Shown: positions 8,537 to 19,661 of the stretch, piece by piece | Numbering within the stretch: the first letter of the stretch is position 1 | Layout of the letters: every line of letters begins with the position of its first letter | Assembly (NCBI RefSeq): GCF_963682185.1 | Contig: NZ_OY821667.1 | Location: forward strand, 1,036,109-1,100,108 | From: an uncultured Cohaesibacter sp. | GTDB lineage: Bacteria; Pseudomonadota; Alphaproteobacteria; Rhizobiales; Cohaesibacteraceae | Reading direction: 5' to 3' | DNA length: 64,000 nucleotides | The notes under the pieces: model-generated | Databases searched by the model: none | Told to the model about the DNA's origin: nothing | The model's input: only the letters and a program-made list of their open reading frames with translations | Translations under genes and position numbers: made by a program

Positions 8537-8971
8537 TTAATAATTAGGCTTGAACAGGTCTGCAAAATCCGTTGCCTTATCCTGCTTTTCCTGATTGCGG
8601 ATATACCGTCTGACGACCTCCTCTTGATAGCCCGTTGTCGAGACAAAGTATCCACGTGCCCAAAAGTGATATCCCTTGTAACGGCGCTTTCTGGCATACT
8701 TATTTGCCACATAAAGAGCCGTCTTTCCTTTGAGAAATCCAACGATATGAGCCACTGAATATTTGGGTGGGATCGAGATCAGCATATGCACGTGGTCGGG
8801 CATAAGATGCCCTTCCTCAATGTGACAGCCCTTTTGTGATGCCAATTTCGTAAATTGATCTCTCGGCTCAAGGCGCAAGTCTCCATATAGACGTTTCGTC
8901 CTATATTTAGAGCCGAATACTATATGATATTTGCAGTCCCAAGTACTGTGTGTTAGGTGATTTTCGTCCAT
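8537..8971 (-). CDS. tnpA: IS200-type HUH transposase TnpA
   Basis: A 144-residue Y1 transposase that cuts and rejoins single-stranded DNA at the element's hairpins. The HUH motif is DHVHMLI and the catalytic tyrosine lies in RRYIRNQEK. It begins with MDENHLTHSTWDCKYH, as in typical IS200 TnpA. The frame extends to 9001, but the ATG at 8971 has GAGGAGG just upstream and matches the family start. The gene is full length, so the copy may be active. Its ribosome binding site lies within a hairpin (8976-9024). Confidence 0.92.
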   Translation of the reverse strand: MDENHLTHSTWDCKYHIVFGSKYRTKRLYGDLRLEPRDQFTKLASQKGCHIEEGHLMPDHVHMLISIPPKYSVAHIVGFLKGKTALYVANKYARKRRYKGYHFWARGYFVSTTGYQEEVVRRYIRNQEKQDKATDFADLFKPNY

Positions 8972-8975
8972 AAAA

Positions 8976-9024
8976 ACCTCCTCATTTGATCTTATAACCA
9001 CGCCAATGGTTCAAGTGAGGAGGT
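8976..9024 (-). promoter_or_regulatory. Hairpin masking the tnpA ribosome binding site
   Basis: In the minus-strand mRNA, ACCTCCTCA (from 9024-9016) is perfectly complementary to TGAGGAGGT (8984-8976), which contains the tnpA Shine-Dalgarno sequence. An inner AACCA/TGGTT stem (8996-9000 with 9007-9011) extends the fold. This matches the post-transcriptional repression known for enterobacterial IS200. Confidence 0.7.
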
Positions 9025-9145: not shown

Positions 9146-10693
9146 TTATTCTGCTGCGCTCGTCTGAGCGTTATGCACTTCCTTTTCCCGGCGTACCATC
9201 AGCTTGTTGAGAGCGGATACATAAGCCTTGGCAGAAGAAACCATGGTGTCAGTGTCGGCAGACCGACCCGTCACCGTATGATCGCCTTCGCGCAAACGAC
9301 AGGACACTTCGGCCTGAGCATCCGTACCGGCGGTCACAGCGCTCACTTGGTACAGCATCAGGCGGGCCTTGTGCGGGATCATCTGCTTGATGGCATTGAA
9401 GATAGCGTCGACAGGGCCGTCACCAGTGGCTTCCTTGGTGACATGCGTGCCATCCATATCCAGCGTTACAATGGCTTTCTGTACGCCGCTGGTGCCCGCA
9501 ATCACGGTCATCGCAATCACCTTGATCTTGTCAGAAGCGGCGCCAACTTCATCATCCACCAGCGCTTCGATATCTTCATCAAAGATGTTCTTCTTTTTGT
9601 CCGCCAGATCCTTGAAGCGGTTGAAGGCATCCTGAAAAGCATTCTCGCCCAGATTATAGCCCAACTGATCCAGCTTCTGCTTGAAGGCGTGACGACCTGA
9701 ATGCTTGCCCATGACCAGATCAGTGCCACCAACGCCCACATCTTCCGGCTTCATGATCTCGTAAGTTTCGGCATTCTTCAGCATGCCATCCTGATGGATA
9801 CCGGATTCATGCGCGAAGGCATTCTTGCCGACAATCGCCTTGTTATACTGCACAGGAAAAGCCGAAACGGCGGATACCAGCTTAGACGCACGGGTCAACA
9901 GCTTGGTATTGATGCCGGTATTGTAAGCAAACACATCATTGCGCGTGCGGATGGCCATAATGACCTCTTCCAGCGCTGCGTTGCCGGCTCGTTCACCCAA
10001 ACCGTTGATTGTGCATTCGATCTGACGGGCACCGCCACGCACCGCTGCCAGCGAATTGGCCACAGCCATACCCAGATCGTTGTGGCAGTGCGCCGAGAAA
10101 ATCGCCTTGTCAGAGTTCGGAACCGTTTCGATAACCCTTTTGAACAAATCGGCGATTTCGAGTGGTGTGGTATAGCCAACCGTATCTGGAATGTTGATCG
10201 TGGTAGCACCGGCATTGATGGCCGCTTCCACGCATTTGCACAGGAAGTCAAATTCGGTGCGGGTGCCGTCTTCGGCCGACCATTCCACATCATCGGTCCA
10301 GTTGCGCGCGCGCGTAACGGACTCGATCACCTTTTCATAGACCCGGTCCGGCTCCATCTGCAACTTGTATTTCATATGCACCGGGCTGGTGGAAATGAAG
10401 GTATGAATGCGGCTCTTTTCAGCGTGTTTGATGGCTTCCCCTGCCCGGTCGATATCTTTGGCGCCAGCGCGGGCCAAACCGCAAACGGTAGCGTTCTTGA
10501 CCACCTTGGCGATTTCGCTTACGGCCTCGAAATCACCGTTGGAGGCGATGGGAAACCCGGCCTCGATCACGTCGACGCCCAATTCATCCAGAACCTTCGC
10601 CACCTGCAACTTCTCTTCCAGCGTCATGGACGCACCGGGAGACTGTTCACCATCGCGCAAGGTTGTGTCGAAAATTACAATGTCGTTATTCAT
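9146..10693 (-). CDS. leuA: 2-isopropylmalate synthase
   Basis: First committed enzyme of leucine synthesis: condenses acetyl-CoA with 2-ketoisovalerate. The N-terminal TIM-barrel HMGL-like domain has DTTLRDGEQSPG and the metal-binding SAHCHNDLGMA; the C-terminal third is the leucine-binding regulatory LeuA domain, and the length of about 515 matches class I enzymes. Two in-frame ATGs exist, 10702 and 10693. The second is preferred because AGCAGG abuts the first but lies 9 bases before the second. Upstream is a Leu-rich leader peptide with RNA hairpins, so transcription or translation is probably attenuated by charged leucyl-tRNA. A terminator follows. Confidence 0.95.
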   Translation of the reverse strand: MNNDIVIFDTTLRDGEQSPGASMTLEEKLQVAKVLDELGVDVIEAGFPIASNGDFEAVSEIAKVVKNATVCGLARAGAKDIDRAGEAIKHAEKSRIHTFISTSPVHMKYKLQMEPDRVYEKVIESVTRARNWTDDVEWSAEDGTRTEFDFLCKCVEAAINAGATTINIPDTVGYTTPLEIADLFKRVIETVPNSDKAIFSAHCHNDLGMAVANSLAAVRGGARQIECTINGLGERAGNAALEEVIMAIRTRNDVFAYNTGINTKLLTRASKLVSAVSAFPVQYNKAIVGKNAFAHESGIHQDGMLKNAETYEIMKPEDVGVGGTDLVMGKHSGRHAFKQKLDQLGYNLGENAFQDAFNRFKDLADKKKNIFDEDIEALVDDEVGAASDKIKVIAMTVIAGTSGVQKAIVTLDMDGTHVTKEATGDGPVDAIFNAIKQMIPHKARLMLYQVSAVTAGTDAQAEVSCRLREGDHTVTGRSADTDTMVSSAKAYVSALNKLMVRREKEVHNAQTSAAE

Positions 10694-10702
10694 AAAACTC
10701 AT

Positions 10703-10836
10703 CCTGCTCTTTGCCGCTGCAGCGCATGGATCTGTTCACATGCAAAGCCAACAAGCGGCTGGAATATTTCCTGCTGCCTTGAAGTTTGTAATCCCCTGAA
10801 GATCCGCCGCCGAATGAGATCAGCGCCTGTCGATGT
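10703..10836 (-). promoter_or_regulatory. leuA leader RNA with alternative hairpins
   Basis: Between the leader peptide stop and leuA. One 8-bp inverted repeat pairs CCCCTGAA (10843-10836, spanning the leader stop) with TTCAGGGG (10800-10793). A second hairpin, GCCGCT...AGCGGC with an inner GCATG/CATGC, ends about 15 bases before leuA. There is no clear hairpin plus T-run, so control could act on termination of another kind or on leuA translation. Confidence 0.6.
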
Positions 10837-10944
10837 TCAGGGGCAGATAAGGAGGAGTAGTTCGGAATTTAGGCGTGCGAGAGCGTTGGGAGCGGGTAGC
10901 TCAACCAATTTGATCTGACCAATTTTGCTCTCTGGAGCGGCCAT
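10837..10944 (-). CDS. Leucine-rich leader peptide of leuA
   Basis: A 35-residue open frame ending SELLLLICP, with four consecutive leucine codons (CTA CTC CTC CTT, 10860-10849) six codons or fewer from the stop. It contains 8 leucines plus several Ile and Val. The ATG at 10944 has GAGAGAG 6 bases upstream. It lies 134 bases before leuA on the same strand, and the stop codon is inside the 5' arm of an 8-bp RNA stem. A ribosome stalled at the leucine codons would cover that arm. This is the layout of a leucine attenuator, a known type of control for leuA in proteobacteria; the assignment here is from sequence alone. Confidence 0.75.
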   Translation of the reverse strand: MAAPESKIGQIKLVELPAPNALARLNSELLLLICP

Positions 10945-11112
10945 AAAAATCTCTCTCATACGTTTGCAGACAATGCTTTTGCATCTCTGCCATTCGGTAT
11001 GGAAAATCTGTAACCGATTAAGCGCAAGGAAACAAGAGCAAATTTCACACACCACGAGAAGAAAGGACGTTAGTTGATCAGAGGTAGAATTTGACTTCCA
11101 TTCCCCTAACAA

Positions 11113-11331
11113 CCAAAAGATGCAACATGATAGTTAAAGAAATACAATACAATATATTCGAATTATTACTTCCCATTAATCAAGTGATCATTATCGTTAG
11201 TATTTGTAAATCACATATATATAAATGATTTTTAAATTAATTTATTCAAATATAAAGACTAAAGGAAAACCCGCCAATAAATATCCAGTAATAGTTGCTG
11301 GAAATAAAAATACAGTCGAAAGGCGCAAAAT
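11113..11331. other. AT-rich spacer upstream of the chemoreceptor gene
   Basis: A strikingly AT-rich stretch, roughly a quarter GC by eye, with runs such as ATATATATAAATG and TTAAATTAATTT. It presumably holds the chemoreceptor promoter and could bind a silencer of the MucR or H-NS type. No specific -35/-10 pair is proposed. The leuA promoter is probably at its left side, near 10960-11100. Confidence 0.5.
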
Positions 11332-17697: not shown

Positions 17698-19467
17698 TCA
17701 GACGAGTTTCTTGCCCGCTTCCCCAATGGCTGTGGCGATCTTGCTTGCGTCCTCTGCTTCTTCAGAGAAGAGCATATCGTTGTGTGCCCGCCCCGACGGG
17801 ATCATCGGGAAGCAATTTTCCAGTTTGGCAACACGGCAATCGAAAATAACTGGGCCGTCATAGGCAATCATTTCATCAATCGCGGCATCCAGCTGATCCG
17901 GCTTGTCGCAAACAATGCCCTTGGCGCCGTAGGCTTCGGCCAGCTTCACAAAGTCCGGCATCGCCTCGACATAAGAGTTCGAAAGCCGGTTGCCATGCAA
18001 CAGCTGCTGCCACTGGCGCACCATGCCAAGATGCTCGTTATTCAGGATCATGATCTTGACTGGCAGGTTATGCTGAATAGCGGTCGAAAGCTCCTGAATA
18101 TTCATCTGCACGGAACCGTCACCGGCAATGTCGATCACCAGACTTTCCGGATGAGCTGTCTGCACACCCAAAGCAGCCGGGAAGCCATACCCCATGGTGC
18201 CCAGCCCACCGGATGTCATCCAGCGATGAGGCTCTTCAAAGCCAAGGAATTGTGCGGCCCACATCTGATGCTGCCCAACCTCGGTGGTGATATAGTAGTC
18301 CTTGCCCTTCAGCTTTTCATTCAGGCGCTGCAAGGCATATTGCGGCATGATAACGTCGTCATTGGGTCGATAGGCCAGACAATCACGCTTGCGCCAGATC
18401 TTGATCTGCTCCCACCAGGTCGCCAAAGCTTCCTTGTCGGTTTTCTTGCTGCTGGCCCGCCAGATGCGCACCATATCTTCCAGAACATGGCCGACATCAC
18501 CAACAATCGGCAGATCCACCCGAACAATCTTGTTGATCGAGGACGCATCGATATCGATGTGGATCTTTTTGGAGTTGGGCGAGAAGGCATCAAGCCGCCC
18601 GGTGATGCGGTCATCAAACCGCGCCCCGACACACAGCATCACATCGCATTCATGCATGGCCATATTGGCTTCATAGGTGCCGTGCATGCCCAGCATGCCG
18701 AGCCATTCCTTGCCCGATGCCGGATAAGCACCCAGCCCCATCAGCGTGGAGGTGATCGGAAAACCGGTCAGGCTGACCAGTTCGCGCAGCATCTGACAGG
18801 CTTCAGCCCCAGAATTAATGACACCGCCACCGGTATAAAGCACTGGTTTCTTGGCCGAAACCAGCATCTCAACCGCTTTGCGAACCCCATCCAGGTCGCC
18901 CTTTAGCTGCGGATGGTAGGTCTTGTGACTGACATTGCTCGGTCCATGATACATGCCGCTGGCGAACTGAACATCTTTCGGAATGTCAACGACAACCGGC
19001 CCTGGTCGACCGGAACGAGCAACATAGAAGGCCTCATGCAGAATGCGCGGCAGATCCTCAATGGAGCGAACCAGATAGTTATGCTTGGTACAAGGGCGTG
19101 TGATGCCGGAGGTATCGCACTCCTGAAAGGCATCAGAACCGATCAGGGAGGTCGGAACCTGCCCGGTAATGCAAACCAGAGGAATGGAATCCATCAGCGC
19201 ATCGGCCAGCGGGGTTACGGCATTGGTGGCGCCCGGACCGGAGGTCACGAGCAGCACGCCCACTTTGCCGGTTGAACGGGCATAGCCCTCTGCTGCATGG
19301 CCAGCGCCCTGTTCGTGGCGCACGAGAATGTGACGAATATCTTCCTGCTGAAAGATTTCATCATAGATCGGGAGAACCGCGCCCCCAGGATAGCCAAAAA
19401 TATGGTCCACACCCTGATCTTTCAGAGCACGAATAACCATCTCAGCACCCGTCATCTGCCGTGTCAT
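17698..19467 (-). CDS. ilvB: Acetolactate synthase, large catalytic subunit
   Basis: ThDP- and FAD-dependent enzyme that makes acetolactate and acetohydroxybutyrate, the entry to valine, leucine and isoleucine. The 589-residue product has the catalytic glutamate region RHEQGAGHAAEGYARSTG, a central FAD-binding domain and the C-terminal ThDP motif GDGSVQMN...ILNNEHLG. AAGGA lies upstream of the ATG. Transcription should begin upstream of 19743 and pass through an Ile/Leu/Val-rich leader peptide and a terminator hairpin, indicating attenuation. Confidence 0.96.
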   Translation of the reverse strand: MTRQMTGAEMVIRALKDQGVDHIFGYPGGAVLPIYDEIFQQEDIRHILVRHEQGAGHAAEGYARSTGKVGVLLVTSGPGATNAVTPLADALMDSIPLVCITGQVPTSLIGSDAFQECDTSGITRPCTKHNYLVRSIEDLPRILHEAFYVARSGRPGPVVVDIPKDVQFASGMYHGPSNVSHKTYHPQLKGDLDGVRKAVEMLVSAKKPVLYTGGGVINSGAEACQMLRELVSLTGFPITSTLMGLGAYPASGKEWLGMLGMHGTYEANMAMHECDVMLCVGARFDDRITGRLDAFSPNSKKIHIDIDASSINKIVRVDLPIVGDVGHVLEDMVRIWRASSKKTDKEALATWWEQIKIWRKRDCLAYRPNDDVIMPQYALQRLNEKLKGKDYYITTEVGQHQMWAAQFLGFEEPHRWMTSGGLGTMGYGFPAALGVQTAHPESLVIDIAGDGSVQMNIQELSTAIQHNLPVKIMILNNEHLGMVRQWQQLLHGNRLSNSYVEAMPDFVKLAEAYGAKGIVCDKPDQLDAAIDEMIAYDGPVIFDCRVAKLENCFPMIPSGRAHNDMLFSEEAEDASKIATAIGEAGKKLV

Positions 19468-19637: not shown

Positions 19638-19661
19638 AAAAAAGGGCCCCTCAAAGGCCCC
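19638..19661 (-). terminator. ilvBN attenuator terminator
   Basis: On the minus strand GGGCC, loop, GGCCC followed by TTTTTT (the A-run at 19638-19643). It lies 26 bases after the leader peptide stop and about 170 bases before ilvB, so it can only regulate read-through into ilvBN. A competing pairing of GGCGCGC (19712-19706, inside the leader frame) with GCGCG(T)CC (19669-19662) would form the pause hairpin. Confidence 0.8.

Follow-up and report, generated by a model that had tools for sequence, protein, structure and literature searches.

A leucine-codon leader ahead of leuA in Alphaproteobacteria as a candidate translational attenuator

The leuA leader locus

We analyzed a 64,000-nucleotide (nt) stretch of DNA from an uncultured Cohaesibacter sp. 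(contig NZ_OY821667.1, positions 1,036,109 to 1,100,108; hereafter the window) in which a short leader open reading frame (ORF) precedes leuA, the gene for 2-isopropylmalate synthase. Coordinates are window positions, and all leader and leuA features lie on the minus strand. The leader ORF (10944–10837) consists of 35 codons and a TGA, with its ATG at 10944–10942 and its stop codon at 10839–10837, and is found in all 17 genus sequences examined. It encodes MAAPESKIGQIKLVELPAPNALARLNSELLLLICP (35 amino acids), which ends SELLLLICP and contains four successive Leu codons, CTA CTC CTC CTT (10860–10849), that we propose act both as sensor codons and as an anti-Shine-Dalgarno strand. A GAGAGAG (10957–10951) lying 6 nt 5′ of the leader ATG is, from its sequence, the probable leader ribosome-binding site (RBS), and GAGAGA occurs within 21 nt 5′ of the leader in 15 of the 17 genus sequences (counted by eye). 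The stop codon falls within the 5′ arm of an 8-bp stem, here called P1, formed by CCCCUGAA (10843–10836) and UUCAGGGG (10800–10793). The initial annotation had predicted a leucine leader peptide with four consecutive Leu codons before leuA and a stem enclosing its stop codon; ORF, stop, codons and both stem arms are located as it claimed.

The leuA ORF, named by similarity to annotated leuA records, spans 10702–9146 from its first ATG. That ATG is missing from three leaders (L005, L008 and L009), and translation therefore probably begins at the second ATG (10693–10691). The probable leuA Shine-Dalgarno (SD) sequence is AGGA (10705–10702), which also forms the 3′ arm of the core of the long-range base helix described below. 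The leader is presumably part of the leuA transcript. Judged by its substitution pattern, it is under coding constraint in the genus, with a pN/pS of 0.58 in frame versus 1.14 and 1.12 in the other two frames (codons 2–25, 14 distinct genus sequences). LLLL or LLL followed by (I/M)CP and a stop ends all 17 genus sequences, which come from 16 of 18 genus genomes; in the remaining two, G004 and G008, the leuA matches were all distant, and L010 and L056 are identical copies within one genome. Loss of the Leu run in close relatives, which would have counted against a leader peptide, was thus not seen, as three or four Leu codons are kept in 17 of 17.

Leucine-rich leaders across the class

We gathered 136 leuA upstream regions, 30 and 26 of them from relatives and 80 from named contigs; one of the leaders, L078, belongs to Bradyrhizobium diazoefficiens. 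Defining a Leu-rich tail as three or more Leu among five residues close to the end of an ORF whose stop lies between 320 nt upstream of the gene and 20 nt inside it, we found such tails in 122 of 136 regions, versus 13 of 136 when the opposite strand was read. In 116 of the 136 we found a core pattern, CTN-(one codon)-CTN-(two codons)-CYY-stop, each time with a downstream P1 partner; the other 20 lack it. Of these 116 leaders 110 were used, 93 being non-redundant, 92 having a chosen ATG and 89 entering the footprint model below. Because a CTN codon at the final Leu position and C[CT][CT] ahead of the stop are built into the pattern, that position and the 5′ arm of P1 are partly preselected; the third base of the last Leu codon and the P1 3′ arm are not preselected. 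Leaders were divided by P1 arm sequence, not by taxonomy, into a Rhodobacterales type and all others. Three alignments were built: A1, with 34 of 40 Rhodobacterales-type references (L093, L095, L099, L101, L110 and L134 were dropped as belonging to other orders or carrying long inserts); A3, with 79 of 90 sequences; and A4, with 14 of 16 genus sequences (L015 and L053 were dropped for weak base helices, −7.7 and −6.3).

A covariance model, R1, made from the 79 sequences found one match per genome in 102 of 385 genomes of the class Alphaproteobacteria and none in the other 283, under stricter filters and irrespective of the leuA type carried. The element is thus common but not universal. The window itself is assigned to Alphaproteobacteria by its tmRNA and its named relatives. 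R1 also matched 66 of 398 genomes of the phylum, all 66 within Alphaproteobacteria, the share of other classes in that sample not being stated. Under the script's rule, 45 of 47 matched loci read, a set that includes the window's own locus and some R1 training sequences, had a LeuA motif no more than 600 nt downstream; the other two, L181 and L184, are truncated by contig ends but also carry the motif, some 115 nt past the match. The 16 listed genomes of one family of the same order (f24) gave no R1 match, and the one of them tested for leuA (G042) carries distant homologues only.

Leucine codons pair with the leuA start region

RNAalifold, run on the genus alignment A4 with no structure supplied, pairs UCCU within the Leu codons (10856–10853; alignment columns 8–11) with the AGGA of the leuA SD (10705–10702), and the four pairs hold in 14, 13, 14 and 14 of 14 rows. 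These form the core of what we term the base helix; in the window (L001), the predicted duplex of the Leu core with 10711–10696 has an energy of −11.8 kcal/mol. Across the leaders, the codons that follow the Leu run join it in pairing with the leuA start region.

We then asked whether each Leu core pairs better with the start region of its cognate leuA than with the start regions of other leaders in its group. In 28 Rhodobacterales-type leaders, cognate duplexes averaged −12.26 kcal/mol versus −9.63 for swapped ones (z −5.9; 0 of 5000 permutations), and 64 other leaders gave −10.45 versus −8.99 kcal/mol (z −6.3; 0 of 5000). Six controls per group (the reversed core, three neighboring leader segments and two other targets) yielded z values of −2.0 to +1.0 for the Rhodobacterales type and −3.0 to +0.9 for the others, the −3.0 coming from one upstream segment.

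The choice of synonymous codon agrees with the same pairing. A CUU/CUA difference at the last Leu codon is matched on the opposite arm (UCCUUAGCC with GGCUAAGGA, UCCUAAGCC with GGCUUAGGA), such that CUU occurs with an AAG partner and CUA with a UAG partner. Of 93 non-redundant leaders, 84% have CTT and 16% have CTA as their last Leu codon, and none has CTC or CTG. CTT makes up 38% of 480 leader Leu codons versus 6.7% of 1727 in the bodies of leuA, where CTG accounts for 57% and CTA for 1.2%. In the 64 other leaders the 3′ arm of the base helix lies mostly −20 to −10 from the AUG, on the SD (up to 37 of 64 at one position). Two Rhodobacterales-type leaders, L121 and L125, have an ORF between leader and leuA, and there the base helix falls at the start of that intervening ORF. 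The ORF itself appears cupin-like, a name given by reading alone. Together these comparisons argue that the Leu codons, as the anti-SD strand, form a long-range helix with the leuA start region.

The stop-codon stem and the structures it encloses

P1 shows class-wide covariation. In A3 (79 sequences), 99.1% of 632 cells are paired and 38 are double-changed, neither value being reached in 500 shuffles; the double changes fall in four pairs, a count equalled by 41 of the 500. Sliding the partner by one column lowers pairing to 54–64%. Pairing extends to the middle base of the stop codon, with UGA opposite C in 60 sequences and U in 11, and UAG or UAA opposite U in 8. In the 34 Rhodobacterales-type sequences the last sense codon varies among Leu, Ser, Phe, Ile, Pro and Arg, yet 99.7% of P1 cells are paired, with eight double-changed cells (0 of 500 shuffles) in two pairs (equalled in 85 of 500). 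Within the genus P1 is invariant and therefore conserved but uninformative. Taken with the sequence comparisons above, class-wide support is good for the ORF and its Leu run, for P1 and for the pairing of Leu codons with the leuA start.

Within the P1 loop, 10827–10820 (RNAalifold columns 37–44) pairs with 10813–10806 to form an inner hairpin, three pairs of which are changed on both sides in A4, in two rows each. Part of its 3′ arm, GCGGC (10810–10806), can alternatively pair with 10759–10755 to give a pseudoknot helix, S2. The latter bases belong to GCCGCU (10759–10754), which serves either as the 3′ strand of S2 or as the first 5′ strand of a hairpin, H3, the two uses being mutually exclusive. 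In H3, 10759–10754 pairs with 10718–10713 and a second 5′ segment, 10751–10747, pairs with 10723–10719 (three of five pairs changed on both sides, 89.9% of cells paired); its 3′ side (10723–10713) stops 7 nt short of AGGA. The genus alignment including H3 holds seven double-changed cells, a number reached in 0 of 500 shuffles, and the second hairpin that the initial annotation placed close to the leuA RBS is thereby both present and conserved in the genus.

Support for the two forms differs between groups. In the genus, S2 shows one compensated and two broken cells over 14 sequences, and 70 of 500 shuffles do as well, so the nested form with H3 is better supported there than the pseudoknot. 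In the Rhodobacterales type, all 34 sequences have a pseudoknot helix, taken as the best one within a 38-nt stretch, and the third loop measures 6–11 nt. A position-restricted cognate test, applied to this type only, gave z 4.4 (0 of 5000), and its controls gave 2.3, 0.5 and 2.0; part of the signal is therefore composition. When the P1 loop was instead tested for duplexes anywhere in the downstream region, the outcome was ambiguous, with Wilcoxon p values of 0.25 and 0.088 and with 16 and 2 of 5000 permutations.

Absence of a terminator-like site before leuA

A scan of 10500–11300 found no terminator-like site on either strand, although the lack is not remarkable by itself because shuffles lead one to expect 0.6. 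Upstream of an ilvB-like ORF (17698–19467), a minus-strand stem at 19661–19643 is followed by TTTTT; the ORF's name comes from the initial annotation and from reading, not from a family search. The difference between the two regions that had been pointed out at the start, a hairpin with a T-run before ilvB and none before leuA, therefore stands. The hairpin and TTTTT make the ilvB-like region a candidate classical attenuator in the same window. On the other side of leuA, downstream of the gene, lies an ORF (8537–9001, minus strand) that, judged by reading, resembles a small IS200-type transposase.

A proposed translational switch and its alternatives

An element named LEU was predicted ahead of leuA in Actinobacteria in 2005 (Seliverstov et al., PMC1262725). 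We propose, with a probability of about 0.7, that the leuA leader studied here is an alphaproteobacterial translational attenuator of the LEU type, in which a ribosome waiting for leucine frees the leuA start. The leader would be translated as a 35-codon peptide. With plentiful leucyl-tRNA, ribosomes would traverse the Leu codons, end at the stop codon within P1 and depart; P1 would re-form with the inner hairpin or the pseudoknot, placing the Leu-codon RNA beside the leuA start, and the Leu codons would pair with the start region (in the window, UCCU with AGGA) and hide it. With scarce leucyl-tRNA, a ribosome would wait on the Leu codons and cover the anti-SD strand, and leuA would be translated. 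The initial annotation had supposed that a stalled ribosome acts by altering the stop-codon stem. The stem is real by the covariation above, but it is probably not the main switch, as it is the Leu codons that pair with the leuA start region. Its suggestion that the output lies at translation initiation, with no intrinsic terminator, we judge the most likely one.

We modeled the effect of a waiting ribosome with a partition function without pseudoknots, masking the ribosome footprint and comparing the cost of opening the leuA RBS. A footprint on the Leu codons lowered this cost by 1.15 kcal/mol in 27 Rhodobacterales-type leaders and by 1.70 kcal/mol in 62 others. Control footprints gave 0.17 and 0.10 kcal/mol when placed 30 nt upstream and 0.48 and 0.27 when placed 45 nt upstream. 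Relief from the Leu codons exceeded the 30-nt control in 19 of 27 (p 0.0096) and 45 of 62 leaders (p 5.1e-5).

Several observations weigh against this proposal. Relief was no greater than that from the upstream control in 8 of 27 Rhodobacterales-type and 17 of 62 other leaders. In the window the opening cost drops by only 0.7 kcal/mol, from 4.9 to 4.2. Among 13 leaders considered one by one, L005, L012 and L033 have negative relief and L010 has zero. The genus base helix comprises four pairs without covariation in the 14 sequences of A4, and some members have a weak helix (L010 −4.3, L012 −6.1, L053 −6.3). In the Rhodobacterales type the 3′ arm of the base helix usually falls between −30 and −18 relative to the AUG, upstream of the usual place of an SD. 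The minimum free energy of 10680–10960 is ordinary (z −1.06; 26 of 200 shuffles fold as well). Finally, the modeled relief from a ribosome at the stop codon comes close to that from one on the Leu codons, at 1.03 kcal/mol in the Rhodobacterales type and 1.52 kcal/mol in the others. The switch would thus need a difference in dwell time between the two positions, on which its direction and sensitivity rest; we therefore infer these, as we do stalling itself.

Among the alternatives, control of transcription through Rho is improbable. Here a stalled or terminating leader ribosome would alter the access of Rho between leader and leuA, and the structures would be by-products. The missing intrinsic terminator fits such a scheme, and Rho has been proposed for the terminator-less cys leaders of Mycobacterium (PMC1262725). 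What it leaves unexplained is the better match of Leu codons to their own leuA start region, and the position of the helix in L121 and L125, at the start of whichever ORF comes first.

We regard as equally improbable that leuA is controlled by a protein or some other ligand bound to the folded leader, with translation of the Leu codons secondary. A protein, a helicase of the ML1624 type, is the regulator favored for Actinobacteria in PMC1262725, from the phylogenetic pattern of ML1624 orthologues and from a report that mutations of the Leu codons were without influence on regulation. If the elements are the same, that mutant report is the strongest published point against a ribosome-operated mechanism. 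Against a protein stands the finding of the same study that, as of 2005, ML1624 had no close homologues outside Actinobacteria, whereas the same architecture occurs in Alphaproteobacteria, and the coding constraint on the leader also speaks for translation.

A further possibility, less probable again, is that translation of the leader itself opens the leuA start, stalling playing no part, the leucine signal being weak or absent and the leader a coupling device. The similar relief from ribosomes at the stop codon and on the Leu codons (1.03 versus 1.15 and 1.52 versus 1.70 kcal/mol) is in line with such coupling, but coupling alone has no need of a conserved Leu run before a gene for leucine synthesis. 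That the CUU and CUC codons merely reflect the rare-codon use of a sensitive attenuator, as seen in attenuators elsewhere, with an incidental likeness to an anti-SD, is very unlikely: CTT and CTA are indeed scarce in leuA bodies (6.7% and 1.2%), but the cognate-versus-swapped results and the matched partners of CUU and CUA need pairing, not rarity alone.

Relation to known systems

The element appears to be widespread and uncatalogued in Alphaproteobacteria, although its design had already been predicted in another phylum. No Rfam 15 model matches it; the matches within the window are tmRNA models elsewhere and one at chance level (E 3.3). Full-text literature searches (covering, in some cases, the best 20 of 261 or 12 of 45 hits, subscription papers lying mostly outside) returned no description of it in Alphaproteobacteria, a result that does not extend to Vitreschak et al. 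2004 on proteobacterial attenuators or to a 2010 survey by Lopatovskaya, Seliverstov and Lyubetsky. Nor is it described in the portions consulted of PMC4833913, PMC8632094, PMC2873474 and PMC10117765.

Like the leuL leader of enterobacteria and the ilvB-type leaders, the leuA leader combines codons for the regulated amino acid with alternative RNA folds; unlike those transcription attenuators, it has no terminator hairpin and T-run before leuA. The leuL1 leader of Streptomyces lividans, MRFGLLLLSCRGEGL, also precedes leuA without a typical terminator, but in the parts of PMC8079986 consulted it is reported to be transcribed leaderless and no pairing with the leuA start is described. A Leu-run leuA leader is mentioned for Corynebacterium in the consulted part of PMC4046766.

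The closest counterpart is the LEU element of Actinobacteria, which shares a Leu-run leader peptide before leuA and pairing of the Leu codons with the leuA SD as a base stem; its base stem encloses a pseudoknot, for which the alphaproteobacterial leaders have a candidate. For comparison we examined eight leuA upstream regions from a plasmid collection, six actinobacterial and two rhizobial. A Leu-run ORF is present in four of the six actinobacterial regions (L190, L191, L193 and L194, from Nonomuraea, Nocardia, Microbacterium and Tsukamurella), and none was found in the upstream stretch read of two Streptomyces regions (L192 and L197). Two Streptomyces plasmid 2-isopropylmalate synthase genes were set aside as short paralogues. 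All four actinobacterial leaders have P1 and a candidate pseudoknot helix (with five pairs only in Microbacterium), and the pairing of Leu codons with the SD ranks first in Nonomuraea, Microbacterium and Tsukamurella (there with two G-U pairs) and second in Nocardia.

There are also differences. The stop codon lies inside P1 in Alphaproteobacteria and in the loop after the P1 5′ arm in the four actinobacterial leaders, and in Rhodobacterales-type leaders the base stem is displaced upstream of the SD place. The LeuA types differ as well, the window's LeuA being 22% identical to a Pantoea LeuA (H39) that matches actinobacterial LeuA records at 46–49%. In the two rhizobial regions, from Sinorhizobium meliloti pSymB (L195) and Shinella (L196), LeuA resembles the actinobacterial type; the leaders end SLLLLGL(I/T)RGCRVR and have CUUCUC/GAGAAG at the leuA start. 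The sequence GACGAAGAGAAG occurs before leuA in both of these and in Microbacterium (L193). A second stretch, CTTCTTAGCTGCC, is identical in the leaders of Bradyrhizobium (L076) and of two actinobacterial regions (L190 and L193), and is too short to decide between homology and shared constraint.

A wider possibility, which we hold tentatively and think less probable than its opposite, is that the alphaproteobacterial and actinobacterial LEU elements form a single cross-phylum family of translational switches operated by ribosomes, either ancient or spread together with leuA. In such a family the sensing codons would double as the anti-SD, the stop codon would sit in or beside a pseudoknot, and the mechanism would be leader translation and not the protein proposed in 2005. 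Because that actinobacterial regulator is reported absent outside its phylum, leader translation is again a candidate mechanism. The comparison extends the LEU element, twenty years old and mechanistically unsettled, from Actinobacteria to much of a second class, with covariation across many lineages, and it offers a clear candidate for a leader whose synonymous codons are dictated by base pairing to the start of the gene that follows.
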